This document shows positions 31,534-61,168 of a stretch of 64,000 nt of DNA, one piece after another. This DNA is from Thioclava sp. ES.031. GTDB taxonomy: Bacteria > Pseudomonadota > Alphaproteobacteria > Rhodobacterales > Rhodobacteraceae. The stretch covers positions 3,536,501 through 3,600,500 of the forward strand of contig NZ_PDJO01000001.1 of NCBI RefSeq assembly GCF_002563775.1. The letters run 5' to 3'. Numbering within the stretch: position 1 is the first letter of the stretch; each line of letters begins with the position of its first letter. Both the position numbers and the translations under genes were made by a program. Below the pieces are notes generated by a model. It made no database searches, had not been told where the DNA came from, and saw only the letters and a list, made by a program, of their open reading frames with translations.

Positions 31534-31607
31534 GGCGAGTTGGCGGAGTGGTGACGCAGCGGATTGCAAATCCGTGTACACCGGTTCGATTCCGGTACTC
31601 GCCTCCA
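31534..31607 (+). tRNA. trnC: tRNA-Cys (GCA)
   Basis: A 74-base tRNA: acceptor arms GGCGAGT and ACTCGCC with discriminator and encoded CCA (TCCA), D arm GGCGGAGTGGTGACGCA, anticodon stem GCGGA-TTGCAAA-TCCGT with anticodon GCA, and TPsiC arm CCGGTTCGATTCCGG. Its 3' part is the probable integration site of the island that follows. Confidence 0.97.
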
Positions 31608-31612
31608 CTACT
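31561..31612 (+). repeat. Left attachment-site repeat (within tRNA-Cys)
   Basis: The 52 bases from the anticodon stem to five bases past the tRNA end (ending CTCCACTACT) recur at 61117-61168. The only mismatch is G31574 against T61130. The intact tRNA is on this side, as expected when an element restores the 3' end on insertion. Confidence 0.9.
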
Positions 31613-31717
31613 TAGCCGAAAATCGGGGCTCTGGTTTACAGGTTGGTTTACAGGACCAACCCGACAGTCGGCTTTTCTGCTGACATTTCAGATGACCAAT
31701 CGTGGCCTGACGCCATG

Positions 31718-31867
31718 TTAGGCGGGGTTTGGAGTGAGGCGGAAAACGCCGCGATCGACTTCCAAGGGGCGCGCGAGCCCGTTCTGCATGAACTTTCCCG
31801 GTGCGGTGTATTGCCACGCGATCCGGCGCTCGGAGCGCCACTGGGACCAGGCACTGCAAACGCCCCC
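31718..31867 (-). pseudogene. IS3-family transposase (OrfB) C-terminal fragment
   Basis: A 49-codon open stretch with no start, read on the minus strand, contains WRSERRIAWQYTAPGKFMQN followed by GLAR. This closely matches the IEWHYIAPGKPMQNGFVES block of IS3-family DDE transposases. Downstream of it the frame decays, and no terminal repeats or OrfA are found. The 31,613-31,940 interval holds nothing else recognisable. Confidence 0.7.
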
Positions 31868-31940
31868 TCAGCGCTCTCAAGAGAGGCGATAGCCTATTCG
31901 GGCCAAGCACCTGCCTGCCCCGAAGCCTTCGCGCAAAAGA

Positions 31941-33035
31941 TCATTCCGCGACGAGTTCGCCGTTTTCGATCTGCTCACGCTCGATCGACTCGAAGAGCGC
32001 CTTGAAGTTACCTTCGCCGAACCCGTCATCGCCCTTGCGCTGGATGAATTCGAAGAAGATCGGCCCGATCACCGTCTTCGAGAAGATCTGCAGCAGGATC
32101 TTCGTCTCGCCGCCGCCAAGGACACCTTCGCCGTCGATCAGGATACCGTGCTTCTTCATTCGCTCGACCGGCTCCTCGTGCCCGGTCACGCGGTCATGGC
32201 TCAGCTCGTAATAGGTCTCGGGCGGGGCCGGCATGAAGCGGATGCCGCGATCGGCGATCGCGCCGGCCGCCTCGTAGATGTCGCGCGCGCCCACGGCGAT
32301 GTGCTGGATGCCCTCGCCCTTGTATTTCTTGAGATAAGAGACGATCTGCCCGGTCTCGCCGCGATCCTCGTTGATCGGGATGCGAATCCGCCCGCAGGGC
32401 GAGGTCAGCGCCCGGGAATAGAGACCGGTATATTTCCCCTCGATATCGAAGAACCGGATCTCGCGGAAATTGAACAGATCGCCATAGAAGTTGAACCACT
32501 TGTCCATGTTGCCCTTGAAGACATTGTGGGTCAGGTGGTCGAGGTAATAGAAGCCCACGCCTTTCGGCTTCGACGTCTTCAGCCAGTCGAATTCCGCGTT
32601 ATAGGGTGAGGTGTCGTAATATTGGTCGGTGAAATAGATCAGGCTGCCGCCGATCCCCTTGATCGCGGGCCAGTCGACTGTCTTGTCGGCCCCTTCATAT
32701 GGCTCCGCACCGTTCTTCACCGCGTGATCGAAGGCGTGCTGCGCATCGACAACGCGCCATGCCATCGAGGGTGCGCAGGGCCCGTGCTCCTCCACGAAAC
32801 GGGCCGCGAAACTGTCGGGGTCGGCGTTGAGAACGTAGGTGATGTCGCCCTGCTGCCAAAGCTCGACCGGCTTGGATTTATGGCTGGCGACATGCTCATA
32901 GCCCATCTTCGCGAAAAGATCGCGCAGCTCTTGCGGATCGGGATGGGCGAATTCGACGAATTCGAACCCGTCCGTGCCGGCGGGGTTCTCCTCGGTGATG
33001 GTCGATTGCGGGGCATCGTGCGGGAACGGTCCCAT
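31941..33035 (-). CDS. hpd: 4-Hydroxyphenylpyruvate dioxygenase
   Basis: A 364-residue Fe(II) enzyme converting 4-hydroxyphenylpyruvate (from tyrosine) to homogentisate. The VOC-fold C-terminal domain shows the metal ligands: His167 in LDHLTHNVFKGNM, His245 in GIQHIAVGARD and Glu329 in FFEFIQRKGDDGFGEGNF. Length and motifs match the bacterial HPPD group. A GGAGGAG ribosome site precedes ATG 33035. It is divergent from an Lrp-type regulator and supplies the substrate of the hmgA operon about 17 kb away in the same island. Confidence 0.96.
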   Translation of the reverse strand: MGPFPHDAPQSTITEENPAGTDGFEFVEFAHPDPQELRDLFAKMGYEHVASHKSKPVELWQQGDITYVLNADPDSFAARFVEEHGPCAPSMAWRVVDAQHAFDHAVKNGAEPYEGADKTVDWPAIKGIGGSLIYFTDQYYDTSPYNAEFDWLKTSKPKGVGFYYLDHLTHNVFKGNMDKWFNFYGDLFNFREIRFFDIEGKYTGLYSRALTSPCGRIRIPINEDRGETGQIVSYLKKYKGEGIQHIAVGARDIYEAAGAIADRGIRFMPAPPETYYELSHDRVTGHEEPVERMKKHGILIDGEGVLGGGETKILLQIFSKTVIGPIFFEFIQRKGDDGFGEGNFKALFESIEREQIENGELVAE

Positions 33036-33123
33036 GAGTCTCTCCTCCTGTTTGCGCTGCGAAGAGGATAGCCCGGGACGGATGCTCGTTCCGCGCGAAG
33101 TCGCGCATATAATCCCTAAGATT

Positions 33124-33688: not shown

Positions 33689-34438
33689 TCAGCCGAGAGT
33701 GAGCCCCTTGCGCAGGGCGATCAGGTCGATGTCACGTGAGACGAAGACGGCACCGGCCTCGAGCGCACGCTGATAGACCTCATCGTCGGTGGTGAGAATA
33801 CCCGGCGGCAGGCCCGCGGCGCGGATGCGCGCGATCGCGTCGAGCACCGCCGCAGTGGTCTCGGGGTGCGAAGGCTCGCCCGGATGCCCAAGTGAGGCCG
33901 CCAAATCCGCAGGCCCGACGAAAATCCCGTCCACCCCGGGCACGGCGGCGATCTCCTCGAGATTGGAGAGCCCCTCGACACTCTCGATCTGTACGACGAG
34001 ACAAATCTCTTCCCGGGCGATCTTGTGGTAACCGGGAATCTTGGCGAAGCGCGTGGCGCGGTTCATGCCGGAAACCCCACGCATGCCCTGCGGCGGATAT
34101 TCGACCGCCGCCACCGCCGCGCGTGCCATCTCTGCATCGTGCACCATCGGCACGAGGATCGTCTGCGCGCCGAGGTCGAGTATTTTCTTGATCTCCGCCG
34201 CGTCGAGGGATCCGGGCCGCACGATCGGCGAAACAGGATAAGGGGCCACCGCCTGCAACAGCGGCAAGACACTGCGCGCATCGAGCGCCGAATGCTCGGT
34301 GTCGAACATCATCCAGTCGTAACCGCAGCCAGCGATCAGCTCGGTGGCAAGCGGGTCGCTCATCGTGCACCAACAGCCACGCTGGACCTCGAAGGCTTTC
34401 AGCGCCGCTTTGAACGAATTTCTTGGCAGATCGACCAT
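33689..34438 (-). CDS. hpaI: 4-Hydroxy-2-oxoheptane-1,7-dioate aldolase
   Basis: A 249-residue class II HpcH/HpaI aldolase, splitting the last meta-pathway intermediate into pyruvate and succinate semialdehyde. Seen are FDTEHSALDARSV near 45, PIVRPGS with the catalytic Arg near 70, VQIESVEGLSNLEEIAAVPG with the metal Glu near 148, and VDGIFVGPADLAASLG. It is the last gene of the hpa operon, separated by 141 bases from hpaH. AAGGAAG precedes the ATG. Confidence 0.92.
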   Translation of the reverse strand: MVDLPRNSFKAALKAFEVQRGCWCTMSDPLATELIAGCGYDWMMFDTEHSALDARSVLPLLQAVAPYPVSPIVRPGSLDAAEIKKILDLGAQTILVPMVHDAEMARAAVAAVEYPPQGMRGVSGMNRATRFAKIPGYHKIAREEICLVVQIESVEGLSNLEEIAAVPGVDGIFVGPADLAASLGHPGEPSHPETTAAVLDAIARIRAAGLPPGILTTDDEVYQRALEAGAVFVSRDIDLIALRKGLTLG

Positions 34439-34579
34439 CGTGATTTTCTTCCTTATTGACCTCGGCACCCGCGGAACGGACGCGCGGGGCCGTCCGTAAA
34501 AGGTGCTTGAGCTTATTCGAAACGGACGCCGATCGCACCTCGCGAACAGCAATCCGCCGGACTGGCATGACCTGCCGCC

Positions 34580-35380
34580 TCAATCGAAGGCGATGGACAC
34601 GTCCCCGAAAGCGCCGAAATCGGCCTCGATCCGGGTCCCCGGGGGGCACTCGATCGGTGCGATGAACGACCCCGACAGGATCACCTGCCCCGCCTCGATC
34701 CGCTGGCCGTACTGGCCCATTCGCCGCGCCAGCCAGACAAGCCCCTGCGCTGGATCGTCCAACACCGCCGCGCCTAGCCCGGTCGTCTCGACCTCGCCAT
34801 CCTTGCGCAGGATCGCTCCGGTCCAGCGCAGATCAACCCGAGATGGATCGTGACGCGCCTCGCCCAGCACGATCCCCGCATTCGCCGCATTGTCCGACAC
34901 GGTATCGACGATCACACGCGCCTGCCCGGTCGCGGGATCGGCGCGCAGAATGCGGGTGTCGAGGATCTCCAGCGACGGGGTCACGTAATCGGTCGCGGCC
35001 AGCACCGCCGCGCGATCCGCCGTAGCGTCGAGCGGCGCTTTCATGACGAAGGCGATCTCGGCTTCGACTCGCGGCTGGATGAAACGCCCGGCAGGCACCG
35101 TCGCCCCGCTGGCAAACAGCATATCGTCATAGAGCACGCCAGAATCCGGCGTGTCGATCTTGAGCGCGGCCTGCATCACCTTCGAGGTCAGCCCGATCTT
35201 CCAGCCAAGGATCGAACGTCCCGCCGCCAGCTTGCGCGCCATCTGCGCCGACTGGATTGCATAGGCGTCGTCCAGCGTCATGCCGCGATGGCGCAGGCTC
35301 AACAGCCCGATCTGTTTACTCGCTTCTTCGGCGGCCAGCAGGTCATCGGCGGCCTGCGCGATCTGATCGGAGCTCAGCAT
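34580..35380 (-). CDS. hpaH: 2-Oxohept-4-ene-1,7-dioate hydratase
   Basis: A 266-residue hydratase of the MhpD/HpaH group, adding water to 2-oxohept-4-ene-1,7-dioate. The block LGWKIGLTSKVMQAALKI near 60, RVEAEIAFVM near 105 and the closing VILSGSFIAPIECPPGTRIEADF are typical. Its start overlaps the end of hpaG by seven bases, so the two are translationally coupled. Confidence 0.93.
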   Translation of the reverse strand: MLSSDQIAQAADDLLAAEEASKQIGLLSLRHRGMTLDDAYAIQSAQMARKLAAGRSILGWKIGLTSKVMQAALKIDTPDSGVLYDDMLFASGATVPAGRFIQPRVEAEIAFVMKAPLDATADRAAVLAATDYVTPSLEILDTRILRADPATGQARVIVDTVSDNAANAGIVLGEARHDPSRVDLRWTGAILRKDGEVETTGLGAAVLDDPAQGLVWLARRMGQYGQRIEAGQVILSGSFIAPIECPPGTRIEADFGAFGDVSIAFD

Positions 35381-36255
35381 GTCGGCTCATCCGCAACGGT
35401 GTTGCGCAGCAGGCCGATGCCTTCAGCCTCGACTTCGATCACGTCGCCCGGTTGCAGCCAGATCGGAGGATCGAACCGCGCCCCTGCCCCGGTCGGCGTG
35501 CCGCACACGATCACGTCGCCCGGCACCAGCGTCGTGAAAGTGGATACGTAATTCACGATATAGCGGAAATCGAAGATCATCCGACCTGTGCGATCGTTTT
35601 GGCGAACCTCGCCATTCACGCGCGTGGTCAGCTCGATATCGTCCAGCTGGGTCGCGTCGCGGAACGGCACCAACCACGGGCCCATCGCGCCGGAGCGGTC
35701 CCAGTTCTTGCCCTGCGTTACGTTGAATTTCGCATGGCGCACCCAGTCGCGGATCGTGCCCTCGTTGCACAGGGTCAGCGCGGCGATGTGATCGTAGGCG
35801 TCTTCCTTCGCGATCCGGCGCCCCGCCTTTCCGATCACGATCACCACCTCGCCCTCGTAGTCGAGCTGCGGGCTTTCCGGCGGACGGATCAGCGGCTGGC
35901 CATGCCCGGTGAAGCTGCGCGGGAAGCGGATGAACATCGACGGATAAGGCGGCGCGGCCTGCCCGTCTTTGTATTCGGCGTTTCGGTCGGGAAAGTTCAC
36001 CCCGATACAGATCAGCTTTTCCGGAGCCGCCATCGGGATCAGGAACTCGACCTCGTCGATGCGATAATCAGACGCGCGGCCCTCCGCCGCCGCGATCACC
36101 TCTTCCAGCGCGCCGGCCTCTATGACCTGCTGAAGGGTCGCGAACCGCGCGCCGAACTCTGGAGTGAGATCCACGATGCCGCCATCCTGCACCACGCCGT
36201 AGCGATCCGTGCCACCGATGCGAAACGCCGCGATGCGCGGCAGTGCCAGAGTCAT
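35374..36255 (-). CDS. hpaG: FAH-family isomerase/decarboxylase of the homoprotocatechuate pathway
   Basis: A 293-residue fumarylacetoacetate-hydrolase-fold protein. Visible are KLICIGVNFPDRNAEY near 81, LDYEGEVVIVIGKAGR with metal Glu residues near 130, and VPGDVIVCGTPTGAGARFDPP near 245. In this operon it should be the 5-oxopent-3-ene-1,2,5-tricarboxylate decarboxylase (HpaG). E. coli HpaG is a fused double domain that also isomerises; this one is a single domain, so it may do one step only. ATGA overlap links it to the decarboxylase gene upstream. Confidence 0.85.
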   Translation of the reverse strand: MTLALPRIAAFRIGGTDRYGVVQDGGIVDLTPEFGARFATLQQVIEAGALEEVIAAAEGRASDYRIDEVEFLIPMAAPEKLICIGVNFPDRNAEYKDGQAAPPYPSMFIRFPRSFTGHGQPLIRPPESPQLDYEGEVVIVIGKAGRRIAKEDAYDHIAALTLCNEGTIRDWVRHAKFNVTQGKNWDRSGAMGPWLVPFRDATQLDDIELTTRVNGEVRQNDRTGRMIFDFRYIVNYVSTFTTLVPGDVIVCGTPTGAGARFDPPIWLQPGDVIEVEAEGIGLLRNTVADEPTC

Positions 36256-37664
36256 GACAGTCCCTCCTGTGAAAGTCCCAGCCCGTCGAGAATGGCGCTA
36301 TAGGCGATGTCGATATCGGATTCGCTCATCGCAAAGGACCCGGCCTGAAAGCGGATCGCAAGCCGGTTGCCGACCCGCGTTTGGGTGAGATAGATGCGCC
36401 CGTCATCGTTGATCGCGCTCACATGCGAGATCGTGTCGTCATCCGATGCGCCCGCCCGGCGAAACGAGAACAGCGACAGCACCGGGGCGGTCACGATCTC
36501 AATGCCCGGGGTCCCAGCCAGCCGGTCATGCAACATCCCCGCCCAGCGAACGTGATCGCGGATCATCGCGCGCAGCCCCTCAAGCCCATGAAAGCGCAGC
36601 AGGAACCACAGCTTGAGCGCGCGGAAACGGCGTCCCAGCGGTACGGACCATTCGGAATAGTTGACGATCCCGTCGCGACCATGGGTCTTGAGATACTCGG
36701 GCTGGATCGCCAGCGTGCGCACCAGCATCTCGGGGTCGCGAATGAAATGGGCCGAACAGTCGAAGGACGCGCCCAGCCATTTATGCGGATTGAAGACGAC
36801 GGAATCCGCACCCTCGATTCCGGCCCAAAGCGTGCGGAACTCCGGACAGATCATTGCAGAACCGGCCCACGCTGCATCGACATGGATCAACAGATCATGG
36901 GCATGCGCGACCGCCACCAGTGCTCCGATATCGTCGCATGCCCCGGTGCTGGTCGCCCCCACGCAGCCGATTACCCCAGCGGGCTGATACCCGGCCGCCA
37001 GATCCGCGCGGATCGCCGCCTCCAGCGCTTCGGGCGGGAGCGCGCCGCTGCGCGGATCGGCGGGCAGTTTCACAAGGTTGTCCTGCCCGATCCCCGCGAT
37101 CCAGATCGCCCGGTCAATCGAGGAATGCACCTGATCCGAGCAGTAGATCCGCAAGCGCGGCGCTTGGCTGAGCCCCGCGCGATTGCCCTGCCAGTCCAGC
37201 GCACGCTCACGCATCATCAAGACCGCCGCCAGCGTCGCAGACGAGGCGCTGTCCTGAATGACGCCCGAGAACGCTTCGGACAGCCCCAGCGCGTCGCGCA
37301 GCCATTCCATCATCCGGGTTTCCAGCTCGGTCGCCGCCGGAGAGGTCTGCCAGAGCATGCATTGCGCGGCCATAGCGGTGACCAGATATTCCGCCACCAC
37401 CGACACGGGGGCTGCATTGCTGGGAAAGTAAGCGAAGAAGCGCGGATGCTGCCAATGGGTCATGCCCGGCTCGATCAGGCTCTCGAACTCGTCAAAGATC
37501 CGCTCCATTTCGCAGCCGGTTTCGGGCGGCTTGGGCGGGATCGCGCGGTAGATCTCGCCGGGCGTCGTGCGCGCGCGCACCGGGCGGGCATCGAGTGTTT
37601 CGCGATATTTCACACCCCATGACGCCGCGCGCCGCGACCATGTCTCGAAGTCCTGAACATCCAT
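36252..37664 (-). CDS. PLP-dependent aromatic amino acid decarboxylase
   Basis: A 470-residue group II decarboxylase. The early THWQHPRFFAYFPSNAAPVS (near 70), the SASSATLAAVLMMRERAL block, VDAAWAGSAMICPEFR (near 265) and the PLP lysine in VFNPHKWLGASFDCSA (near 298) match animal and bacterial tyrosine/DOPA/tryptophan decarboxylases. It lies inside the homoprotocatechuate operon, coupled to hpaG by an ATGA overlap. It could release an aromatic amine (for example tyramine or dopamine) that, once oxidised, feeds this pathway; that link is an inference. AGGAG (GCAGGAGAAACAGG) precedes ATG 37664. Confidence 0.9.
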   Translation of the reverse strand: MDVQDFETWSRRAASWGVKYRETLDARPVRARTTPGEIYRAIPPKPPETGCEMERIFDEFESLIEPGMTHWQHPRFFAYFPSNAAPVSVVAEYLVTAMAAQCMLWQTSPAATELETRMMEWLRDALGLSEAFSGVIQDSASSATLAAVLMMRERALDWQGNRAGLSQAPRLRIYCSDQVHSSIDRAIWIAGIGQDNLVKLPADPRSGALPPEALEAAIRADLAAGYQPAGVIGCVGATSTGACDDIGALVAVAHAHDLLIHVDAAWAGSAMICPEFRTLWAGIEGADSVVFNPHKWLGASFDCSAHFIRDPEMLVRTLAIQPEYLKTHGRDGIVNYSEWSVPLGRRFRALKLWFLLRFHGLEGLRAMIRDHVRWAGMLHDRLAGTPGIEIVTAPVLSLFSFRRAGASDDDTISHVSAINDDGRIYLTQTRVGNRLAIRFQAGSFAMSESDIDIAYSAILDGLGLSQEGLS

Positions 37665-37702
37665 CCTGTTTCTCCTGCAAGGGCTTGCGTGCGGGGACCC
37701 GC

Positions 37703-38683
37703 TCACGGCGCGATGATCGGAGTGGCCTTCATGTCGCTGGCGACCGGCTCGACATCTTGGAACAGCGAGCCATGCTCGAACCACGAGCGCGGCGCGGGCG
37801 CCCCCCACAGCGTCTGGCGCTGCGGGTCCTTCAGGTCCCAGCGGATCGCCTCGAGATCGGGATCCACGGTCTGATAATCCGAGCAGTAGATCTCGATCCG
37901 GTGACCATCGGGATCGAGGATATACAGGAAGAAAGCGTTCGAAATGCCGTGACGGCCCGGCCCGCGCTCGATATTGGCGACATAGCCGGTGGTCGACATC
38001 AGATCGAGCAGATCGATGATGTTGAGCGGCGTCGGCACCCAGAACGCGGTGTGATGCAACCGCGGACCAAGCCCGTTCGTGAAGGCGATGTCATGCACCC
38101 CGCCCTTGCGATGGGTCCATGCCGCCCAAAGCCGTCCGCTCTCTTCATCTTCGGTATATTCGGTGACGCGGAAGCCGATGCGATTGTAGAATTCGACCGC
38201 CTTATCGACATCGCTGGCAAAGCAATTGAAATGGTCGATCCGGAGCGGCTTCACGCCGTGATAGAGCGCGTATTTCTGGTGGATCGGTTCCAGACGGTCC
38301 ATCTGGAAATAGAACTCGATCGGCATTCCGAAACAGTCATGGGTGCGCAGGGTGCGGCCCTGATAGGGGCGCTCGACCCATTCGACCGAATGCCCCTCGG
38401 ACTTGAACCAGTCATGCGCCTTGTCCAGCTCGCCCTCGTCGAAGAGCTTGAAGGCGAGCGAGCGCACATTGGCCTCGGGCGTCTTGACCAGAACGACCGA
38501 GTGATGCCCGCGCTCTTCCATCGCACGAAGAAAGATATGACGGTCGTCCTCGTCGGTCACCTGAAGCCCCAGCGTATCGACATAGAAGGCGCGGCTGGCG
38601 GCCAGATCGGTCACGCCGAAGACGACATGGCTGAGGCGGATGATATTGAACGGCGGATACAGGTTCGGGGCCGGAATGGGCAT
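37703..38683 (-). CDS. hpaD: 3,4-Dihydroxyphenylacetate 2,3-dioxygenase (extradiol, VOC type)
   Basis: A 326-residue type I extradiol dioxygenase opening the homoprotocatechuate ring. Two VOC modules are seen, the N-terminal one starting at LSHVVFGVTDLAASRAFYVD. The catalytic second module has metal ligands His in RIDHFNCFASDVD (near 150), His in LHHTAFWVPT (near 210) and Glu in GHRIEIYCSDYQT (near 263). This is the Brevibacterium/Arthrobacter-like type, unlike the type III HpaD of E. coli. Its operon partners fix the substrate. Confidence 0.92.
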   Translation of the reverse strand: MPIPAPNLYPPFNIIRLSHVVFGVTDLAASRAFYVDTLGLQVTDEDDRHIFLRAMEERGHHSVVLVKTPEANVRSLAFKLFDEGELDKAHDWFKSEGHSVEWVERPYQGRTLRTHDCFGMPIEFYFQMDRLEPIHQKYALYHGVKPLRIDHFNCFASDVDKAVEFYNRIGFRVTEYTEDEESGRLWAAWTHRKGGVHDIAFTNGLGPRLHHTAFWVPTPLNIIDLLDLMSTTGYVANIERGPGRHGISNAFFLYILDPDGHRIEIYCSDYQTVDPDLEAIRWDLKDPQRQTLWGAPAPRSWFEHGSLFQDVEPVASDMKATPIIAP

Positions 38684-38737: not shown

Positions 38738-40245
<1,508 letters not shown>

Positions 40246-40246
<1 letters not shown>

Positions 40247-40644
40247 CACTTACCCTTGGCTCGGCCCGACAGGCGGGCGTGAATCGGTGTCTGCTTCCAG
40301 CTCAGCTCCGGGTCGATCACCCGGATTTCGAGCGAGAGCGCGAAATGTTCGGTGGCCAGCGGACCGGCAAACGCGGTCTGGGCGGCGGCAAAAATCGCAT
40401 CCCCCCCCGCGCGCAAGATCGCCGTGTCGCGCCCCGCCCCCACTGAAAGCGTCAGTGCGGCGAAATCGTTTTCCGGCAGCCCGTCGGCCACGATCGCATG
40501 ATCGGCGCAATAGGCGCGCACCCGAATTCCGGCCACCGGGAACAGACCACATTCGACCATCGCGGCATGCAGTGCATGGCAGACCGCCGAGATATCGACG
40601 CGCTCCGCCAGCCCTGCGGAATATTCGATCTTGAGATGCGGCAC
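40246..40644 (-). CDS. hpaF: 5-Carboxymethyl-2-hydroxymuconate delta-isomerase
   Basis: A 132-residue tautomerase-fold isomerase that begins MPHLKIEYSAGLAERVDI, giving the N-terminal proline used as catalytic base in this superfamily. Later blocks are VRAYCADHAIVADG and the final SLEIRVIDPELSWKQ. It is the first gene of the operon hpaF-E-D-decarboxylase-G-H-I. The start lies 22 bases downstream of the HpaR-like palindrome. Confidence 0.92.
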
Positions 40645-40748: not shown

Positions 40749-41231
40749 ATGCCCCAAGACAGCGCCCCCCGACAGCGGCCGGACGGGTTCGAGTTGAACG
40801 CCCCGCGTCGCTCCTTGCCGATCGCCCTGCTGCGGGCGCGGGAATTGGTGATGGAGCGTTTCCGCCCGATGCTCAACGCGCATGACGTGACCGAGCAGCA
40901 ATGGCGCGTGTTGCGAGTGCTGCGCGAAAGCGGGCCGCTCGATGCTTCGATGCTTGCCGAACGTGCCTGCGTTCTAGCCCCTTCGCTGACGCGCATGTTG
41001 CGCGCGCTCGAGACTCGTGGACTGATCGAAATCCGCCGCGACGGCGAAGACCGCAGGCGCGCCAGCGTCGGGCTGAGCGAGGCTGGCACCGCCTTCCTCC
41101 GCGACGTCTCGCCCCAAAGCGCCGAAATCTATGCCAAGCTCGAGGCCGAAATCGGCGCAGAGCGGATCACCCGGCTTCTCGACGAGCTCGAGGCCTTCGT
41201 CGCTGCCCTGGAGCATGACGATCGCGCGTGA
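40749..41231 (+). CDS. hpaR: HpaR, MarR-family regulator of homoprotocatechuate degradation
   Basis: A 160-residue MarR protein close to E. coli HpaR. It shows SLPIALLRARELVMERFRPM, then the winged helix (EQQWRVLRVLRESGPLDASM, LAERACVLAPSLTRMLRALE, RRDGEDRRRASVGL). HpaR represses the meta-cleavage operon until the aromatic acid binds. Divergence from hpaF across a perfect palindrome supports this role and self-regulation. Confidence 0.93.
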   Translation: MPQDSAPRQRPDGFELNAPRRSLPIALLRARELVMERFRPMLNAHDVTEQQWRVLRVLRESGPLDASMLAERACVLAPSLTRMLRALETRGLIEIRRDGEDRRRASVGLSEAGTAFLRDVSPQSAEIYAKLEAEIGAERITRLLDELEAFVAALEHDDRA

Positions 41232-41759: not shown

Positions 41760-41777
41760 CGGGCCCGTCAGGGCCCG
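41760..41777. terminator. Hairpin between convergent MarR and dctM genes
   Basis: CGGGCCC (41760-41766) and GGGCCCG (41771-41777) form a tight stem around GTCA, which includes the dctM stop. No T-tract follows, so termination is only likely. Confidence 0.45.
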
Positions 41778-50052: not shown

Positions 50053-50095
50053 TTTCATTCGCAACGAAGTCAAGGATATTTATTGCACTCGCAAT
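50053..50095. promoter_or_regulatory. Two candidate MarR operators, hmgA-MarR divergent region
   Basis: Site one is TTTCATTCGCAACGAAG (50053-50069). Site two is ATTGC-ACTC-GCAAT (50082-50095), a perfect inverted repeat. Both lie between the divergent hmgA and MarR starts and share the TTGC/GCAA core. Confidence 0.6.
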
Positions 50096-50746: not shown

Positions 50747-50766
50747 ACACAGATGCCCACGCGACG

Positions 50767-53249: not shown

Positions 53250-53260
53250 GTCGGTCCTCA

Positions 53261-53908
53261 TCATAGGCCCAGCAGGCGCAGCGCGGTGGCGTAGCCCTGA
53301 GCGGGAGATTGCACATCGAAGTGAACGGGGATCATGCCGACGGCCTCGGCGCCGCGAATGTTGCGCAGCTGGTCATCGACGAAAACGCAGGCTTCGGCCG
53401 GAAGGTCGAGCGCCTCAAGCACACCATGATAGGCGCGCGGATCGGGTTTCAGAATCTTGGTATAGGTCGCGTCGATCACAGCATCGAACCGGCGAAGGAA
53501 GGGCAGCTTCTCGCGAAAATCCGCGCCGTAGAACAGATCGAGCTCGTTGGACAGGATCGCGAGGCAGCACCCTGCAGCCTCAGCCTTGTCGATCGCTGCT
53601 AGGAATTCCGGGCGGATCACATCGGCAGAGCTCGCCCCGCGCGCCGCGCGCACGAAATCGGACATCTCGCTCCAGTCGCGTCCGACCAGAGCCGCCACTT
53701 CCTGCGTGCGCTGACGCCAATAGTCGCGCTCCGAGATTTCATCCGCCTGCATCGCGCGCCAGAGCGGGTCGGTCTGAGGCTCGAACGGACCGCGCCAGGT
53801 CAAGCTTCCCGACGCAAGACCCAACGCAGCCTCGGTCAGATCATGCGTTTCGAACAGCGTGCGTGAGATCACGCCACCGAAGTCGAGCACGAGCGCGCGC
53901 TCAGCCAT
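53261..53908 (-). CDS. HAD-family hydrolase
   Basis: A 215-residue haloacid-dehalogenase-like hydrolase. All four motifs can be read: LDFGGVI near 8-14 (Asp nucleophile; the second Asp is replaced by Gly), LSNE near 118, KILKPDPRAY near 150 and FVDDQLRNIRGAEAVGM near 173. The DFGGV form of motif I is like epoxide-hydrolase/dehalogenase N-domains rather than classic phosphatases. It overlaps iclR at one end and abuts the aminotransferase at the other, forming one operon. Confidence 0.85.
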   Translation of the reverse strand: MAERALVLDFGGVISRTLFETHDLTEAALGLASGSLTWRGPFEPQTDPLWRAMQADEISERDYWRQRTQEVAALVGRDWSEMSDFVRAARGASSADVIRPEFLAAIDKAEAAGCCLAILSNELDLFYGADFREKLPFLRRFDAVIDATYTKILKPDPRAYHGVLEALDLPAEACVFVDDQLRNIRGAEAVGMIPVHFDVQSPAQGYATALRLLGL

Positions 53909-54686
53909 GCGTCACCTCGCGTTGTTGATAATCCGCAGGAAGCGAACCGCCCATGAGCTCGGACAGTCGGGGCACCCATTTTCGCAGAGCCTCCACCATA
54001 GCTGCGCGCTTCTCGGACCCCGCGCGCGACGAAGGAACCGCGATCGAAACCGCGCCGATCACCGCACCGCCAAGCCCGAAGATCGGACCAGCAAGGGAGG
54101 AAACCTCGTCGTCGAAGCCCTTCTCCACCCACACACTGCCATTGGCACGGCATTCCGCCAGCTTTTCGCGCAGGCTATCAGGGTCGACGACGGTCTGGGC
54201 GGTGAAGCTCTCCAGCGGCGCATCCAGAACCCGCGCCCGCAGATCGTCTCCGCCGAAGCAAAGCATCACCAAGCCAGAGGCTGTCGCGTGCAGAGGCAGA
54301 AGCTGCGACTCGTCGAAAGCGACCTGCGTCCCGTGCAGGCGCGGATCATGATGCACGACCGGCGAAAGCTGCTGGCCTTGCAACAGAGAGACATGGACCA
54401 GCTCGCCGACTTCCTGCGCCATCCCTTCGATAAAAGGACGCAACACCGAACGCAGCGGCATATTCGCCTCGCGCACCCCGTAGAGACGCAGAATCGCGGG
54501 GCCCAGCCGATAGCCACGGGTCTCCGGGTTCTGTTCGAGAAAGCCGCATTCGGCCAATTCGACGAGATGACGGTGCACCGTAGCCTTATCGCGCTGCGTG
54601 AGACGAACATATTCGCTGAGCCCGATCTCGGGGCGCTGAGTGGAGATATAATTCAGCAATTCCAATGCCTTTGTGATCGTTCCCAT
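53901..54686 (-). CDS. IclR-family regulator of the tct module
   Basis: A 261-residue IclR protein. The winged helix (ALELLNYISTQRPEIGLSEY, RLTQRDKATVHRHLVELAEC) is followed by the GAF-like effector domain with LHATASGLVMLCFG near 130. It is divergent from tctC and is followed by HAD and aminotransferase genes, so it probably controls uptake and breakdown of the same compound. ATG 54686 was chosen; the open frame extends to 54803 without a ribosome site. Confidence 0.9.
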   Translation of the reverse strand: MGTITKALELLNYISTQRPEIGLSEYVRLTQRDKATVHRHLVELAECGFLEQNPETRGYRLGPAILRLYGVREANMPLRSVLRPFIEGMAQEVGELVHVSLLQGQQLSPVVHHDPRLHGTQVAFDESQLLPLHATASGLVMLCFGGDDLRARVLDAPLESFTAQTVVDPDSLREKLAECRANGSVWVEKGFDDEVSSLAGPIFGLGGAVIGAVSIAVPSSRAGSEKRAAMVEALRKWVPRLSELMGGSLPADYQQREVTHG

Positions 54687-54720
54687 CGCGCCCTTTGGCA
54701 GCCTCCCGTAAAAATTCCGT

Positions 54721-54737
54721 TCGTTGCAACTGAAACG
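54721..54737. promoter_or_regulatory. MarR-type operator copy in iclR-tctC region
   Basis: TCGTTGCAACTGAAACG matches 16 of 17 bases of the site at 50697-50713 before the third MarR gene. Confidence 0.55.
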
Positions 54738-54766
54738 TTGACAGAAAAGAAAACCCGATGCAAGAA

Positions 54767-54790
54767 TATTTGACACCAACGGTTCAAATA
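54767..54790. promoter_or_regulatory. Candidate IclR operator
   Basis: TATTTGA (54767-54773) and TCAAATA (54784-54790) are perfect seven-base inverted arms with ten bases between, 26 bases before tctC. Confidence 0.45.
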
Positions 54791-54815
54791 ATAAACCACT
54801 CAACAGGAGAGCTTC

Positions 54816-55769
54816 ATGACTTCGACCTTCAAGCTGCTGGCAGGGGCGCTCGCCCTCGGCCTCCCGCTTGCCGCGGGCCTGCCCGCGCAGGCCGAATACC
54901 CCGAGAAACCCGTCGAATTCGTCGTCCCGTTCCCGCCGGGCGATCTGGAAGACGTGCTGACCCGGATGATCGCGGACGAGTTCCAGAAGACCTATGGCGT
55001 TCCCGCTGCGGTGGTGAACAAGCCCGGCGGCGGCGGCGGCCCCTTCCCCGGCGCGGCCGAAGTCGCGCAGGCTCCGGCCGATGGCTACACGGTCGGCTCG
55101 TTCGTGATTGACGTGCCCGTGGTCGGCCCCTCGGTTGGCATCCCCGCGCTCAGCCCCGATCCTTTCGAGCCGGTGGGCATTTTCCTGACCTACCCGTTCG
55201 TCATCGCCGCCTCAAAGGACGCACCCTATGCAACGATCGACGAGCTGGCCGGCTATGCGAAGGACCACGACGTCGCACTCGGCCACTTCGGCTCTTTCCT
55301 GATCCCGACGCAGGTGACCTTCGCACTCGCGAAGAAAAAGGGCTTCGATTTCGGATCCGAAGCGGCGTTCGACGCGCTTGACTGCAACACGCTGGCTTCG
55401 GGCGACGCGGACGTGATCAACACCACCCTGCAACTGATCCTGCCCTGCCTCGGCGATGTGAACGTGATGGCCTCGATCGGCGAAAAGCGTATTCCGCTGA
55501 CGCCCGACACGCCGACGGTCGGTGAATTGGAACCGGATCTCGACCTGGCGCTGTGGGATGGCCTCTTCGTCAAGAAAGGCACTCCTGAGGACGTGCGCGA
55601 AAAGATCGCTGCCGTCGCCGAAAAAGTCATGAGCTCGGACAAGGCCAAGGAGCTGGCCGATCAAACGGGTGCGCTGATCTACTGGCAAGATGCCGCGACC
55701 GCGACCCAGCGCATCGCCCATGACAGTGAAACCCTCGGCACGATCGATGGTCTCATCAATGGCGAATGA
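54816..55769 (+). CDS. tctC: TctC/Bug-type tricarboxylate-family binding protein
   Basis: A 317-residue periplasmic binding protein with a signal peptide (residues 1-26, AQA). The YPEKPVEFVVPFPPGDLEDV strand-loop after it and NKPGGGGGPFPGAAEVAQA near 70 are the Bug-family ligand-pyrophosphate-like contacts. Ligands range from citrate to aromatic acids and are not set by sequence. An AGGAG ribosome site precedes the ATG. Operon: tctC-tctB-tctA-aldehyde dehydrogenase-UPF0261. Confidence 0.93.
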   Translation: MTSTFKLLAGALALGLPLAAGLPAQAEYPEKPVEFVVPFPPGDLEDVLTRMIADEFQKTYGVPAAVVNKPGGGGGPFPGAAEVAQAPADGYTVGSFVIDVPVVGPSVGIPALSPDPFEPVGIFLTYPFVIAASKDAPYATIDELAGYAKDHDVALGHFGSFLIPTQVTFALAKKKGFDFGSEAAFDALDCNTLASGDADVINTTLQLILPCLGDVNVMASIGEKRIPLTPDTPTVGELEPDLDLALWDGLFVKKGTPEDVREKIAAVAEKVMSSDKAKELADQTGALIYWQDAATATQRIAHDSETLGTIDGLINGE

Positions 55770-56370
55770 GCCATCCTCTCCAGGCCCCGCGCGCGAGACC
55801 CCTCCGCGCGCGGGCGCCCGCTTTGCTCGGGCGATCCGCACCAAGAACCTGGAGGATCTGTTCAAGCGCTATCGCCGTCCCGGTGACATGGCCTTCGCCG
55901 TGCTGTTCTTCGCGCTCTCCATCGGTTTGTTGATCGCCCTGCCGTGGCAGACCGAATGGGTCAAGCGCACGAAGACCTACGCGCAACCCGCCTTCTGGCC
56001 GATGATCTCGATCATCGCGATGGTTGTATTCAGCATGTTTCACCTTCTCGGCTCGTTCGTCTCGGAGCGCATTCCCGGCCGATGGCGCGAAGTCATGCAA
56101 TGGCTACGCTCGCTCGAATATGCGGTGTGGTTCATGGCCTATGTCGCGCTGGTCCCGCTCATCGGATACCTGCCCGCCACGATCCTCTTCAGCTGCGCGA
56201 TGACGCTGCGTCTGGGATACCGCGGCTGGCGCTGGATGCTGATCTCTGTCCTGTTCTCGGTCGTCGTCGTGGTGCTTTTCAAAAGCTTCCTGCAAGTCAA
56301 AATCCCCGCCGGGCTGATTTACGAGGCCGCCCCTGCGCCCTTCCGCGCAATTCTAATGACCTACTTCTAA
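55759..56370 (+). CDS. tctB: TctB-type small membrane subunit
   Basis: A 203-residue protein with about four to five hydrophobic segments after a polar N-terminus of 45 residues. It is weakly conserved, as TctB proteins are; its position between tctC and tctA is decisive. The start overlaps the tctC end by 11 bases, so translation is coupled. The N-terminal PRAGARFARAIRTK stretch is basic and cytoplasmic. Confidence 0.85.
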   Translation: MANEPSSPGPARETPPRAGARFARAIRTKNLEDLFKRYRRPGDMAFAVLFFALSIGLLIALPWQTEWVKRTKTYAQPAFWPMISIIAMVVFSMFHLLGSFVSERIPGRWREVMQWLRSLEYAVWFMAYVALVPLIGYLPATILFSCAMTLRLGYRGWRWMLISVLFSVVVVVLFKSFLQVKIPAGLIYEAAPAPFRAILMTYF

Positions 56371-56382
56371 GGAGCGTCCCTC

Positions 56383-57906
56383 ATGGACATGCTGCTTTCC
56401 GGCGCAGAGATGCTGATGCGCCTCGACGTTATGGTCGCTCTCTTGATCGGTTCGATTGGCGGGGTGATCATCGGTGCGATCCCCGGCGTCGGCCCGGCCG
56501 TCGCAATCGCCATCCTGCTGCCCGCGACCTTTGCGATGCCGCCGCTGGTCGGCTTGACCATGCTTCTGGGCATCTACGGGTCGTCAATGTTCGGCGGGTC
56601 GCTGCCCGCAATCCTGATCAACACGCCCGGCACGGCGGTCAACGCGCTGACCACCTATGACGGTCACCCGATGACGAAGAAGGGCGAGGCGTTGCGCGCG
56701 CTTGGCCTCGCCTATGGAGCCTCGTTCTTCGGCGGCGTCGCCTCAATCATCGCTCTGATCCTGCTCTCACCGGTGCTGGCGAAAGTCGCACCGATGTTCG
56801 GCTCGCGCGAGATTTTCCTGGCCGCACTTCTGGGCATCGTCCTGGTGATCCTCGCCCATCGCGGCCAGACCTTCGCGGCCGGAATGTTGGCGGCCTTCGG
56901 AATCTTTCTGCAGACCGTCGGACTGGAGCCCGTCAAATACACGATGCGCTTCACCTTTGGTTTCGACTTCCTGAATTCGGGCTTTGATCTGATCGTGGTG
57001 GTTCTGGGGCTTTTCGCGCTGAGCCAAGCCTTCCTCCTGCTGATCGAGCCGGAATCGGCACCGCATGCGCAACGCATCGAAGGCTCGATGGGACGGGCGA
57101 TGATGGGCGTCCTACGCCACAAAAGGGTGGCGGGCTTTGCTGCCAGCTGCGGCGTGATGATGGGGATGATCCCCGGCGTCGGCGAGTTCACCGCGCAGTT
57201 CCTGTCCTACACCTACGCACAGAAAACCTCGATGACGCCCGAGGAATTCGGCAAAGGCAGCCCCGAAGGCCTGATCGCCTCGGAGGCCGCCAACAACGCG
57301 GTGCCTGCCGCTGCGATGATCCCGCTGCTGGCGCTCGGCATCCCGGGCGAAGCGCTCACCGCGATGATGCTGTCGGTCTTCTACGTCCACAACGTGATCC
57401 CCGGCCCGCAGCTGTTCCAGAACAAGCTCGATTTCGTCTACGCGCTCTATATCGCGATGATCCTGCTCAACATCATCGTGGTGCTGTTCATGCTCGTCTC
57501 GTCGAACTGGCTACTCAAGATCATCCAGATTCCGACGCGTTTCCTTGGCATGATGATCCTCGTTCTTAGCTTCGTCGGCGTCTATTCACTGCGCAACTCG
57601 ATTGTGGACTGCGCGATTGCTGCGGCATTTGGCGTCCTCGGACTGATCCTGAAACGGCAAAACCTGCCGATCGTCCCGATCGTTCTGGGCATGGTCCTGG
57701 GCGGCATCATGGAGACCAAGTTGCGGTCGTCGATGGCGCGCGTGCACGTGCCGATCGACTTCTTCGACCGTCCGATCGCGGCAATCCTCGGATTGGCCAT
57801 CGGCGGACTTCTGATCGCCCATTTCGCGAGCCTTTACCGCGAGCGCCAGAACCGCGAGCCAGAGAGCGTGCACGATCACGACATGCATGACAGTTTCACG
57901 AGGTAA
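56383..57906 (+). CDS. tctA: TctA-type large membrane subunit
   Basis: A 507-residue membrane protein of about eleven to twelve segments. IPGVGPAVAIAILLPATFAM near 33 and the inverted-repeat partner MGMIPGVGEFTAQFLSYTYA near 265 are the conserved TctA pore motifs; GIYGSSMFGGSLPAILINTP and NAVPAAAMIPLLALGIPGEA also match. It forms the cation-driven transport path with TctB. AAGGAG lies before ATG 56383. Confidence 0.95.
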   Translation: MDMLLSGAEMLMRLDVMVALLIGSIGGVIIGAIPGVGPAVAIAILLPATFAMPPLVGLTMLLGIYGSSMFGGSLPAILINTPGTAVNALTTYDGHPMTKKGEALRALGLAYGASFFGGVASIIALILLSPVLAKVAPMFGSREIFLAALLGIVLVILAHRGQTFAAGMLAAFGIFLQTVGLEPVKYTMRFTFGFDFLNSGFDLIVVVLGLFALSQAFLLLIEPESAPHAQRIEGSMGRAMMGVLRHKRVAGFAASCGVMMGMIPGVGEFTAQFLSYTYAQKTSMTPEEFGKGSPEGLIASEAANNAVPAAAMIPLLALGIPGEALTAMMLSVFYVHNVIPGPQLFQNKLDFVYALYIAMILLNIIVVLFMLVSSNWLLKIIQIPTRFLGMMILVLSFVGVYSLRNSIVDCAIAAAFGVLGLILKRQNLPIVPIVLGMVLGGIMETKLRSSMARVHVPIDFFDRPIAAILGLAIGGLLIAHFASLYRERQNREPESVHDHDMHDSFTR

Positions 57907-57909
57907 GCA

Positions 57910-59394
57910 ATGCTCGATACTGACAAGATCGCGGCGCTGCGTAGCGCCGACATCCCCCCTGCCCTGCATCTGATCGAGGGCGCGGCACAGCCCGCCTCGG
58001 ACGGTGGCACATTGGCGGTGATCTCACCGCTCGACGGGCGCGAGATCACCACGCTGGCGCGCGGCACGACCACCGATGCCGAAGCCGCAATCGCCAGCGC
58101 ACGCGCAGCCTTCGATGACGGGCGCTGGTCGGGGCTGGCCCCGGCTGCACGCAAGGCAGTGCTGCTGAAATGGGCCGCGTTGATCGAGGCCAACGCGCTG
58201 AAGCTTGCCGTTCTCGGCGTGCGCGACAACGGCACCGAGATCGGCATGGCACTGAAGGCCGAGCCGTTCTCCGCCGCCGCAACGATCCGCTACTATGCCG
58301 AGGCCATCGACAAGATTTATGGCGAGATAGCCCCCACCGCGCCCGATGCGTTGGGGCTGGTGCATCGCGAACCGGTGGGCGTGGTCGGCGCGATCGTACC
58401 ATGGAACTTCCCGCTGATGATCGGCGCATGGAAGCTGGGCCCGGCGCTGGCGGCGGGAAATACGGTCGTTCTGAAACCGGCCGAGACCGCGTCGCTCACG
58501 TTGCGCCGCATCGCCGACCTGGCGCTCGAGGCCGGGATGCCGCCGGGCGTGTTCAACGTCGTGCTGGGCGAAGGAGCGGTGGTCGGCGAAGCGATGGCTC
58601 TGTCGATGCAGATCGACGTGATGGTGTTCACCGGCTCGGGTCCGGTCGGGCGGCGTCTGCTGGAGAACGCCGCGAAATCGAACCTCAAACGCGTCTTTCT
58701 GGAACTGGGTGGCAAATCGCCCAATATCGTCTTTGCCGATGCGCCCGATCTGGACACGGCGGTGAAGGTCGCGGCCAACGGCATCTTCCGCAATTCCGGC
58801 CAAGTCTGCATCGCGGGGTCTCGGCTGCTGGTCGAGCGGTCGATCCATGACGCCTTCGTCGAGAAGCTGCGTGCCTTCACCGAGACGATGCAGGTGGGCG
58901 ATCCGCTCGATCCGGCGACGCAGGCCGGAGCGGTGAACTCCGCCCGCCAGCTGGAACAGAACCTCCGCTTCGTCAGCGAGGCCGAAGCCGCGGGCCGGCA
59001 GGTCTACGGCGGCAAGCGCATCCGTGAAGAGACAGGCGGGTTCTTCATGGAGCCCACGATCGTCACCGGGGTCGCCCCCGACGATCCGATCGCACAGCGC
59101 GAAGTCTTCGGCCCGGTTCTGGCAGTGATCCCGTTCGACACCGAAGAAGAGGCCCTGCGCATCGCCAACGGCACCGATTACGGGCTGGCCGCGGCCGTCT
59201 GGACCGCAGACCTGAGCCGCGCGCACCGGATGATCCGGGGCATCCACGCGGGCGTCGTGCATGTGAACACCTATGGCGGATCCGACCTGACCGTGCCCTT
59301 GGGCGGGGTCAAGCAGTCGGGAAACGGGCATGACAAGTCACTGCATGCGTTCGATAAATATCTCGATCTGAAAACCGCTTGGATCAAACTGTAA
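57910..59394 (+). CDS. NAD(P)-dependent aldehyde dehydrogenase (PuuC-like)
   Basis: A 494-residue aldehyde dehydrogenase. Motifs: GAIVPWNFPLMIGAWKLGPA near 160, catalytic-base Glu in FLELGGKSPNIVF near 265, and catalytic Cys in FRNSGQVCIAGSRLLVE near 300. It groups by wording with gamma-glutamyl-gamma-aminobutyraldehyde/betaine aldehyde dehydrogenases. With the class III aminotransferase across the divergent region, an amine-to-aldehyde-to-acid route is plausible. It starts four bases after tctA. Confidence 0.92.
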   Translation: MLDTDKIAALRSADIPPALHLIEGAAQPASDGGTLAVISPLDGREITTLARGTTTDAEAAIASARAAFDDGRWSGLAPAARKAVLLKWAALIEANALKLAVLGVRDNGTEIGMALKAEPFSAAATIRYYAEAIDKIYGEIAPTAPDALGLVHREPVGVVGAIVPWNFPLMIGAWKLGPALAAGNTVVLKPAETASLTLRRIADLALEAGMPPGVFNVVLGEGAVVGEAMALSMQIDVMVFTGSGPVGRRLLENAAKSNLKRVFLELGGKSPNIVFADAPDLDTAVKVAANGIFRNSGQVCIAGSRLLVERSIHDAFVEKLRAFTETMQVGDPLDPATQAGAVNSARQLEQNLRFVSEAEAAGRQVYGGKRIREETGGFFMEPTIVTGVAPDDPIAQREVFGPVLAVIPFDTEEEALRIANGTDYGLAAAVWTADLSRAHRMIRGIHAGVVHVNTYGGSDLTVPLGGVKQSGNGHDKSLHAFDKYLDLKTAWIKL

Positions 59395-59404
59395 GGGGGC
59401 GCGT

Positions 59405-60637
59405 ATGACTGATCGCACCATTCTCGTTGTCGGCACTTACGACACCAAGGACGATGAACTGACCTATCTGCGCGAGGCAATCGAGGCACAGGGCGGGCGT
59501 GTCCTGCGTATGGACGTCTCGGTTCTCGGCGCCCCCTCGACCCCGGTCGAATACAGCAAGCATCAGGTGGCCGAAGCGGGCGGCTCTTCTATAGAGGCTG
59601 CGATTGCGAGCGGCGACGAAAACCATGCGATGCAGATCATGGCGCGCGGGGGCGCGACGCTGGTCGCGCAACTCCACGCCGAGGGCCTGTTCGACGGAAT
59701 GGTCGTGCTGGGCGGAACGATGGGCACCGATCTGGCGCTCGACCTATGTGCGGCGCTGCCGATCGGGGTGCCGAAATATATCGTCTCGACGGTCTCTTTC
59801 TCACCGCTTCTGCCGCCCGAACGGATCGCGGCGGATGTCCAGATGATCCTCTGGGCGGGCGGGCTTTACGGGCTGAACTCGATCTGCAAAGCCTCGCTCA
59901 GTCAGGCGGCGGGCGCGGTTCTGGGCGCGGCCCGAGCGGTGGAACGGCCCGATCGTTCGAAACCGCTGATCGGGATGACGTCCTTCGGGAAATCCTTCCT
60001 GAAATACATGGTCACGCTGAAGCCCGAACTCGAAGCGCGCGGCTACGAGGTCGCGGTATTTCACGCCACGGGCATGGGCGGGCGCGCCTTTGAGAGCCTC
60101 GCGGCACAGGGGGCCTTTGCTTGCGTCTTCGACTTTGCCACGCAGGAAATCGGCAACCACCTGCATGGCTCGTCCATCAGCGCGGGTGCCGACCGGATGA
60201 CGAATGCAGGCGCCTCGGGCACGCCGCAGATCGTCGCCCCTGCCTGTCACGATCTGGTCGATATGGTCGGCTGGCAGCCCCTGCCCGACAAATGGAAAGA
60301 TCATCCGAGTCACGCGCATAACCGGCTGCTGACCTCGGTCGTGCTCGATAATGCGGAGCGCCGGGCGGTGGCGCGTGCGCATTGCGAGAAATTGGCTGGG
60401 GCAAGGGGACCGACCGCGCTGCTGCTGCCCTTGGGCGGGGTGCACGAACTGGACCGCCCCGGCCACGATCTGCACGACCCCGAGGGGCTGGCGGGCTTTT
60501 TCGACGAAATCCGCGCCTGCGCGCCCGACAATGTCGCATTGCACGAGGTGAAGGCCCATATCAACGACCCCGACTTCCCCGCAGCCGCGCTTGAGATCTT
60601 CGACGCGTGGCGCGAGGAGGGGCTGGTTAAGGGCTGA
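59405..60637 (+). CDS. UPF0261 / Tm-1-like ATP-binding domain protein
   Basis: A 410-residue protein of the UPF0261 family. TILVVGTYDTKDDELTYLRE at the start, MVVLGGTMGTDLALDLCAAL near 100 and FHATGMGGRAFESLAAQGAF near 215 are family marks. The N-terminal half resembles the ATP-binding part of the plant Tm-1 resistance protein. The enzymatic role is unknown. It is the last gene of the tct operon and often lies beside catabolic genes in other proteobacteria, so it may act on the imported compound. Confidence 0.9.
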   Translation: MTDRTILVVGTYDTKDDELTYLREAIEAQGGRVLRMDVSVLGAPSTPVEYSKHQVAEAGGSSIEAAIASGDENHAMQIMARGGATLVAQLHAEGLFDGMVVLGGTMGTDLALDLCAALPIGVPKYIVSTVSFSPLLPPERIAADVQMILWAGGLYGLNSICKASLSQAAGAVLGAARAVERPDRSKPLIGMTSFGKSFLKYMVTLKPELEARGYEVAVFHATGMGGRAFESLAAQGAFACVFDFATQEIGNHLHGSSISAGADRMTNAGASGTPQIVAPACHDLVDMVGWQPLPDKWKDHPSHAHNRLLTSVVLDNAERRAVARAHCEKLAGARGPTALLLPLGGVHELDRPGHDLHDPEGLAGFFDEIRACAPDNVALHEVKAHINDPDFPAAALEIFDAWREEGLVKG

Positions 60638-60687
60638 GTTAGAGCAGCATGGGCCGCAGGTTTCGTGAGATAGCTTCCTGGGTGAGG

Positions 60688-61042
60688 TCAGACGGACAGG
60701 AAACCACCATCGACCGGCAACACAGCACCGGTGAGCAAACCGGCCTCGTCGGAGAGCAATAGCGCGATTGCAGGTGCGACCTCCTCGGCCTCCGCAATAG
60801 CTCTCGCCGCTACGATCATCTATTGGCTATACGTCCTGAGCCTAGTCGGGGAAGCAACTTCGAATTGTCGACCCAGAGGGATGTCCAACTCGAGCGGAAA
60901 CTTGTCGCCTGAAGGCGCGGTCCGGTACCGGTCACCGATCTCAGCCTCGATGCTAAACAGTTTTGCCGGGCGCGATACACCGAACATAGCCGATACCGAC
61001 CCAATATTCGCTACAAGCCCGGGAGGTTTACAACTCGCCCTT
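60688..61042 (-). pseudogene. Short-chain dehydrogenase remnant at the island's right end
   Basis: Minus-strand frames preserve pieces of one SDR gene. PGLVANIGSVSAMFGVSRPA (catalytic Ser region) comes first, then EIGDRYRTAPSGDKFPLELD and IPLGR. An in-frame stop (TAG near 60822) follows, and then AEEVAPAIALLLSDEAGLLT with GAVLPVDGGFLSV to the stop at 60688. The nucleotide-binding N-terminus and the YxxxK motif are missing, and there are internal deletions. The remaining bases of 60,638-61,116 hold nothing else recognisable. Confidence 0.8.
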
Positions 61043-61116
61043 TAAGTCATTGAAATTCCAGCAAGCCAAACTCACTTAGCTTACAAGAAAATTCAATGAA
61101 ATCAGCGACAAAGCTG

Positions 61117-61168
61117 GGATTGCAAATCCTTGTACACCGGTTCGATTCCGGTACTCGCCTCCACTACT
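61117..61168 (+). repeat. Right attachment-site repeat (tRNA-Cys 3' fragment)
   Basis: 52 bases repeat 31561-31612 with a single mismatch (T61130 for G). The fragment starts at the anticodon stem, so it cannot make a tRNA. It marks the displaced original 3' end of the target gene. Confidence 0.92.

Follow-up and report, generated by a model that had tools for sequence, protein, structure and literature searches.

A probable degenerate genomic island at tRNA-Cys of Thioclava sp. ES.031 and the history of its catabolic cargo

In the genome of Thioclava sp. ES.031, an intact tRNA-Cys gene and a second copy of its 3' part enclose a long run of catabolic genes. Was this arrangement left by an integrating element, what became of the integrase, and did the genes arrive with it? 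These questions were addressed in a stretch of 64,000 nucleotides (positions 3,536,501 to 3,600,500 of contig NZ_PDJO01000001.1, hereafter the window), compared with samples of 16 Thioclava genomes and 90 genomes of the family, the window's own (G000) included. The enclosed genes, from hppD through an hpa part, a TRAP transporter and an hmg part to a TTT transporter and a UPF0261 gene, are called here the block. The locus is probably a decayed genomic island, inserted at the tRNA-Cys 3' end, that has lost its integrase and carries a cargo probably resident in the genus.

A previous reading of the letters alone (the sequence-only reading) had reported a 52-base repeat with one mismatch between tRNA-Cys and a point 29,556 bases downstream. 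This repeat was confirmed: the two copies agree in 51 of 52 bases, start 29,556 bases apart and begin at base 28 of tRNA-Cys. They contain an exact 38-base run, the longest direct repeat of the window; in 20 first-order Markov sequences the longest repeat reached only 15-18 bases. A search pattern of 29 bases based on the 3' end of the tRNA, with up to three mismatches allowed, matches twice in the whole genome (4,019,144 bases, one contig). Two features by which genomic islands are recognized are thus found here, namely a tRNA 3' end that recurs as a direct repeat at either boundary and a tRNA gene left intact.

Integration has repeatedly hit the tRNA-Cys 3' end, which is a hotspot. Extra 3' fragments, defined as matches starting at query base 18 or later and reaching at least base 62 and counted by eye, were found in 26 of the 90 family genomes. 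Seventeen of these fragments lie downstream of tRNA-Cys on the same contig and strand, at a distance of 2.4-92 kb. Eight others are on another contig, including that of G071, which has no full-length match, and the one in G094 (88%) is far away on the same contig. Fragments of the 5' part are present in six of the 90 genomes and in two of them (G104 and G116) lie about 10 kb upstream of the full tRNA-Cys. Within Thioclava, six of 16 genomes have an extra 3' fragment (G000, G004, G006 with two, G007, G012 and G014). A tyrosine recombinase gene follows tRNA-Cys in six (G004, G006, G007, G008, G012 and G014; the G014 gene was assigned because it is 99% identical to a recombinase of G006). In four more (G001, G002, G005 and G010), tRNA-Cys is followed by a fragment of a recombinase. 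No recombinase was found after tRNA-Cys in G000, G003, G009, G011 and G013 by these searches, and G015 has a frame there that looks like an integrase by appearance only.

The sister genome, Thioclava sp. JE_KL1 (G012), retains a recombinase at this site. On its contig C2, tRNA-Cys and about 150 bp of sequence are followed by a NOV_C gene and then by a recombinase that matches PF00589 (37.8 bits, cut-off 27.1); an IS66 transposase lies close to the end of the contig. Its contig C141 begins in an IS5-family element and matches positions 31898-61166 of the window at 97.4%, ending in the same repeat. Relatives of the G012 recombinase at E<=1e-20 comprise 19 matches in 17 of the 90 family genomes, with no match in G000. 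Fifteen of them reach 38% identity or more. Thirteen of these are encoded on the strand opposite to tRNA-Cys and lie 52-217 bp behind it; the remaining two are 1.9 kb behind an extra repeat copy (G077) and on a contig without tRNA-Cys (G128). The four relatives with 31% identity or less are all on contigs without tRNA-Cys. We read the lineage of the G012 recombinase as tRNA-Cys-associated. None of the genome's 11 PF00589 matches lies between the window repeats, and the scanned island proteins (NCBIfam, and Pfam for part of them) include no recombinase.

The left end of the island (31613-31897) is composite: a stretch resembling G012 is followed by a scrap of an insertion sequence (IS) of the IS3 family and then by the cargo. 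The stretch retains the first 14 codons of the G012 NOV_C gene (ATG at 31715), and the alignment to G012 ends at codon 14. The frame of the IS3 scrap has no Pfam match, and similarity to the G012 block starts at 31898. The left repeat copy is attL-like, but the left end as a whole is no simple attL: it consists of 144 bp of the G012-type arrangement and the IS3 scrap. Given the 14 codons, the scrap and the cargo in this order, the simplest reading is that the junction probably arose by a deletion associated with an IS, in which the integrase was lost. Together, the repeat, the hotspot, the G012 recombinase and the left-end remnant support the earlier proposal of an element at tRNA-Cys without its integrase.

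The right junction (60638-61120) is 96.5% identical to G012. A composite transposon with one kind of IS on both sides was considered and rejected, as the IS5 at the G012 contig end is unlike the scrap at the right junction; this rejection is weak because only 144 bases of the contig-end IS were available for comparison.

The history of the locus may be reconstructed as follows. A tyrosine recombinase of the tRNA-Cys-associated lineage would have integrated an element at tRNA-Cys, as the repeat, the hotspot and the placement of the recombinases suggest; integration would have rebuilt the tRNA at the left end and left the 52-bp fragment at the right end. The element would have carried or acquired the hppD-hpa-TRAP-hmg-TTT block, which was probably present elsewhere in genomes of the genus by then. 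G012 would have kept the recombinase beside tRNA-Cys and the block beside the right repeat. In the window lineage, a deletion marked by the IS3 scrap would have taken out the element from codon 15 of its first gene to the block edge, integrase included; with the integrase deleted, the island is predicted to be fixed in place now.

Alternatively, two tandem elements could have stood here, an integrase-bearing one next to tRNA-Cys and a block-bearing one behind it with its own repeat, later fused by the window deletion. More than one extra repeat copy follows tRNA-Cys in G006, G022, G077 and G088, and the contig gap of G012 falls where a middle copy would be. However, no middle copy turned up in the search of G012, which yielded, besides the copies at tRNA-Cys and on C141, one 5'-half match of a different kind, and we consider this scenario unlikely.

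Successive insertions may have left other marks at the hotspot. A diverged copy of the flank that follows tRNA-Cys stands behind the right repeat in G012 and behind the last repeat in G006, and a stretch related to this flank is found at position 93789 of the G014 stretch, as if older elements had been pushed outward. In the window, the right repeat is followed by pcaGH instead. G000 contains no other match to this pcaGH. Its identity to a G013 copy is 82%, and to copies at other places in G009, G014, G012 and G006, which are closer relatives, 70-71%. Elsewhere in the window genome (C1:2576735-2624910, outside the window), tRNA-Gly(CCC) is a second integration site: its 3' part recurs as an additional fragment 48 kb downstream, adjoined by an integrase.

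An island-free site was sought in the 16 Thioclava genomes. The sequence-only reading expected tRNA-Cys to run directly into the sequence at 61169 in relatives, and no such site was found. In G009, pcm and tRNA-Cys are followed, without the island, by a homolog of genome position 64325-65122, which differs from the sequence at 61169.

The origin of the block was assessed from its copies in other Thioclava genomes. It is complete and in the same order, from hppD to UPF0261, at a non-tRNA site of G002 (C94:76778-104670). Of the partial copies, that of G013 extends from hpaI to maiA. G008 has hppD and the hmg part, together with pieces of hpaE, of the fah-like gene and of hpaI, and G005 has hpaI and the hmg part at a contig end. 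G009 has complementary halves at 1.06 and 3.22 Mb (C1:1060944-1072714 and 3223519-3240072), which look as if the block had been duplicated and then reciprocally deleted. As far as the fetched flanks show, the block adjoins tRNA-Cys in two genomes and is located at other sites in five. It is thus very improbable that the block has always been beside tRNA-Cys and that the repeat was left by an unrelated event. Such a history would fit the two sister genomes in which the block is next to a tRNA-Cys repeat, but in five genomes the block is elsewhere, and the stretches first fetched after tRNA-Cys in other genomes (2.8-20 kb; tblastn, E<=1e-10) lack block genes, apart from a 34% aminotransferase in G003 and 25-26% TRAP paralogs in G006.

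A conserved ancestral site of the block was rejected, as the flanks in G002, G013, G009 (both loci), G005 and G008, compared over 6.9-25 kb, are essentially unrelated; for G005 the comparison covered 2.3 kb of a single flank. The sole shared flank DNA outside the block edges is 201 bp at 70% between G008 and G013, and shared flank proteins are at the paralog level (45-52% identity). For the left flank of G009 locus b, the one long match (71%) is in G005, where it lies on a different contig. The block is 1.2 kb behind tRNA-Gly(CCC) in G008 and 0.6 kb behind tRNA-Ser(GCT) in G005. The only other match of the G008 tRNA-Gly was 80%, belongs to a type also present in other genomes and was taken as another tRNA-Gly gene; tRNA-Ser was not searched, and a tRNA link for these two copies was set aside as coincidence. 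Two stretches flanking the hpa/TTT half in G009 (C1:3222283-3222668 and 3242379-3242738) are 78% and 91% identical to DNA behind tRNA-Cys in G006, and the first also matches DNA behind tRNA-Cys in G014; perhaps this is shared mobile DNA.

Trees were built for pcm (seven genomes), six genes of the hmg/TRAP part (seven) and four genes of the hpa part (five). They have a common backbone, in which G000 and G012 with G009 are opposed to G013 with G002, G008 and G005. The trees disagree in the order within G002, G008 and G005, and one pcm node has a support of 0.43. The collinear and partial copies, the broadly congruent trees and the essentially unrelated flanks argue that the block is probably an old possession of the genus that has moved between sites and been lost in places, rather than a recent import. 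On the sequence-only reading, the element would have brought in the whole block as a foreign, mobile unit. Its patchy distribution in the 16 genomes (hpaD at 87% or more in five, hmgA in seven, UPF0261 in four), its absence at that level from the close relatives G006 and G014 and the greater divergence of the hmg/TRAP part than of the hpa part in G009 would fit such an import. Yet the collinear copy at a non-tRNA site, the backbone that the hpa and hmg trees share with pcm and the ordinary G+C content (63.1% versus 63.8%) speak against it, and we regard whole import as improbable. Tentatively, elements at tRNA hotspots could have acted as shuttles that re-site genes already owned by the genus, with one block largely inherited with its hosts yet standing in another neighbourhood in almost every genome that retains it.

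Several points weigh against a degenerate island with a resident cargo. The tRNA-Cys and the block of G012 are on different contigs, with IS66 and IS5 sequences towards the contig ends, and we infer the join between them. Stop codons interrupt four of the 15 closer recombinase relatives, and the G077 relative is partial. No examined genome combines an integrase-bearing element without the block and an exact empty site. The host phylogeny is that of a single gene, pcm. Finally, G009 is 86.7% identical to the window in the hmg/TRAP part, 93.6% in the hpa part and 92.5% in pcm, so the parts of the block need not all share one history.

The gene content of the island is listed in Table 1. NCBIfam and Pfam scans together with tblastn bore out the gene content given by the sequence-only reading. 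The HpaI-type aldolase probably starts further in than the listed frame. The island proteins scanned with NCBIfam, and in part with Pfam, include no relaxase or type IV secretion gene, as would mark an integrative and conjugative element, and no phage structural or packaging gene (PHROGs were not used). A perfect 30-base tandem duplication (50447-50506) precedes the third MarR-type regulator.

Table 1. Features of the tRNA-Cys island (window coordinates).
Feature	Position	Strand	Evidence
tRNA-Cys(GCA), intact, integration target	31534..31607	+	ARAGORN
Left repeat copy, attL-like, within tRNA-Cys plus 5 bases	31561..31612	+	Repeat search, Markov controls
Left-end remnant of the G012 integrase-bearing arrangement, 144 bp	31613..31756	+	Alignment to G012 contig C2
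IS3-family transposase scrap, presumed deletion junction	31779..31841	.	About 80% to annotated plasmid IS3 transposases and congener copies
hppD, 4-hydroxyphenylpyruvate dioxygenase	31941..33035	-	TIGR01263 over cut-off
HpaI-type aldolase	33689..34552	-	TIGR02311 305.5 bits, below cut-off 368.8; PF03328 over cut-off
hpaH-type hydratase	34580..35380	-	TIGR02312 346.7 bits, just below cut-off 351.5
FAH-family protein, HpaG-like	35374..36255	-	Profile matches below cut-offs
PLP-dependent decarboxylase, aromatic amino acid type	36252..37808	-	PF00282
hpaD, homoprotocatechuate 2,3-dioxygenase	37703..38683	-	TIGR02295 over cut-off
hpaE dehydrogenase	38738..40249	-	TIGR02299 over cut-off
hpaF isomerase-like	40246..40644	-	NF011605, below cut-off
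hpaR, MarR-type regulator	40749..41231	+	TIGR02337 over cut-off
Second MarR-type regulator	41293..41751	+	Below cut-offs
TRAP transporter DctM, DctQ, DctP	41768..44561	-	TIGR00786, NF037995 over cut-off; DctQ from position only
FAD monooxygenase, MBL-fold protein, fahA, hmgA	44844..50073	-	NF006002, TIGR01266 over cut-off; PF00753; hmgA by tblastn to annotated hmgA
MarR-type regulator and maiA	50713..51839	+	maiA TIGR01262 over cut-off; regulator below cut-offs
Class-III aminotransferase, HAD hydrolase, IclR-type regulator	51897..54803	-	NF005683, TIGR01509 over cut-off; IclR below cut-offs
TTT transporter TctCBA, aldehyde dehydrogenase, UPF0261	54816..60637	+	PF03401, PF07331, PF01970, PF06792; aldehyde dehydrogenase below cut-offs
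SDR gene scrap (60688-60797, C-terminus PF13561) and IS5 transposase scrap (60790-60855)	60688..60855	.	
Element-end sequence, 50.6% G+C, common to G012	60856..61116	.	
Right repeat copy, attR-like, tRNA-Cys 3' part	61117..61168	+	Repeat and genome pattern search

The hppD, hmgA, fahA and maiA genes probably encode tyrosine breakdown through homogentisate, and the hpa genes, several of which score below curated cut-offs, probably encode the meta-cleavage of homoprotocatechuate. The closest solved structures by sequence are DOPA decarboxylase 7xin for the decarboxylase and an omega-transaminase for the class-III aminotransferase. Gene neighbourhoods of hpaD, up to 10 kb per side, were examined in the best-scoring 80 of at least 567 confirmed loci, some of them cut by contig ends. 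In this sample, at least two of the aminotransferase, HAD, TctA, aldehyde dehydrogenase and UPF0261 genes are near hpaD in 15 loci, and the decarboxylase at 50% identity or more in 16, including G012 and G013. These recurrent neighbourhoods support a shared pathway, and our leading but still doubtful candidate, drawn from gene families and neighbourhoods, is a route from L-DOPA or dopamine to homoprotocatechuate. L-DOPA would be decarboxylated to dopamine, which would be transaminated and oxidised before homoprotocatechuate meta-cleavage; the module that the sequence-only reading called unknown may funnel L-DOPA or dopamine into homoprotocatechuate. No HpaB/HpaC-type hydroxylase turned up among the island proteins scanned. 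The module of aminotransferase, HAD, TTT, aldehyde dehydrogenase and UPF0261 genes adjoins hpaD repeatedly in Rhodobacterales and Rhizobium (loci L085-L160), hinting at a role of UPF0261 in aromatic amine catabolism.

The locus illustrates that an island can resemble imported cargo and yet carry genes that were probably resident in the genus. Two sister species represent two stages of decay, with the recombinase retained in G012 and lost in the window. The tRNA-Cys-associated integrase lineage can be used to locate such islands across the family, and the cargo points to a testable L-DOPA/dopamine route in marine bacteria.

Our literature searches returned nothing direct on Thioclava islands, on tRNA-Cys islands in Rhodobacter or Rhodobacterales, or on dopamine clusters. 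Pseudomonas putida U has a 3,4-dihydroxyphenylacetate catabolon for tyramine and dopamine, reportedly described by Arcos in 2010. The central meta-cleavage route is the same as the one proposed here for aromatic amines; entry in the window block would be by the decarboxylase and the class-III transaminase. Partial tRNA copies have been explained by integrating elements in a survey centred on 20 Thermococcaceae genomes (PMC9897764), and the right repeat of the window is likewise a partial tRNA copy from a probable integration. The Paracoccus prophage vB_PspS_PD42 is listed in tRNA-Cys(GCA) (PMC6536676). As far as that listing goes, the window island resembles such tRNA-borne islands and prophages in its target gene, in the tyrosine recombinase lineage of its relatives and in the 3' fragment at its far end, whereas it has no recognised phage or conjugation gene among the proteins scanned, its integrase is gone and its cargo is catabolic. 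It is probably an ordinary tRNA-Cys island in kind, with two twists: a recombinase that survives in the sister genome and a cargo that was probably resident.

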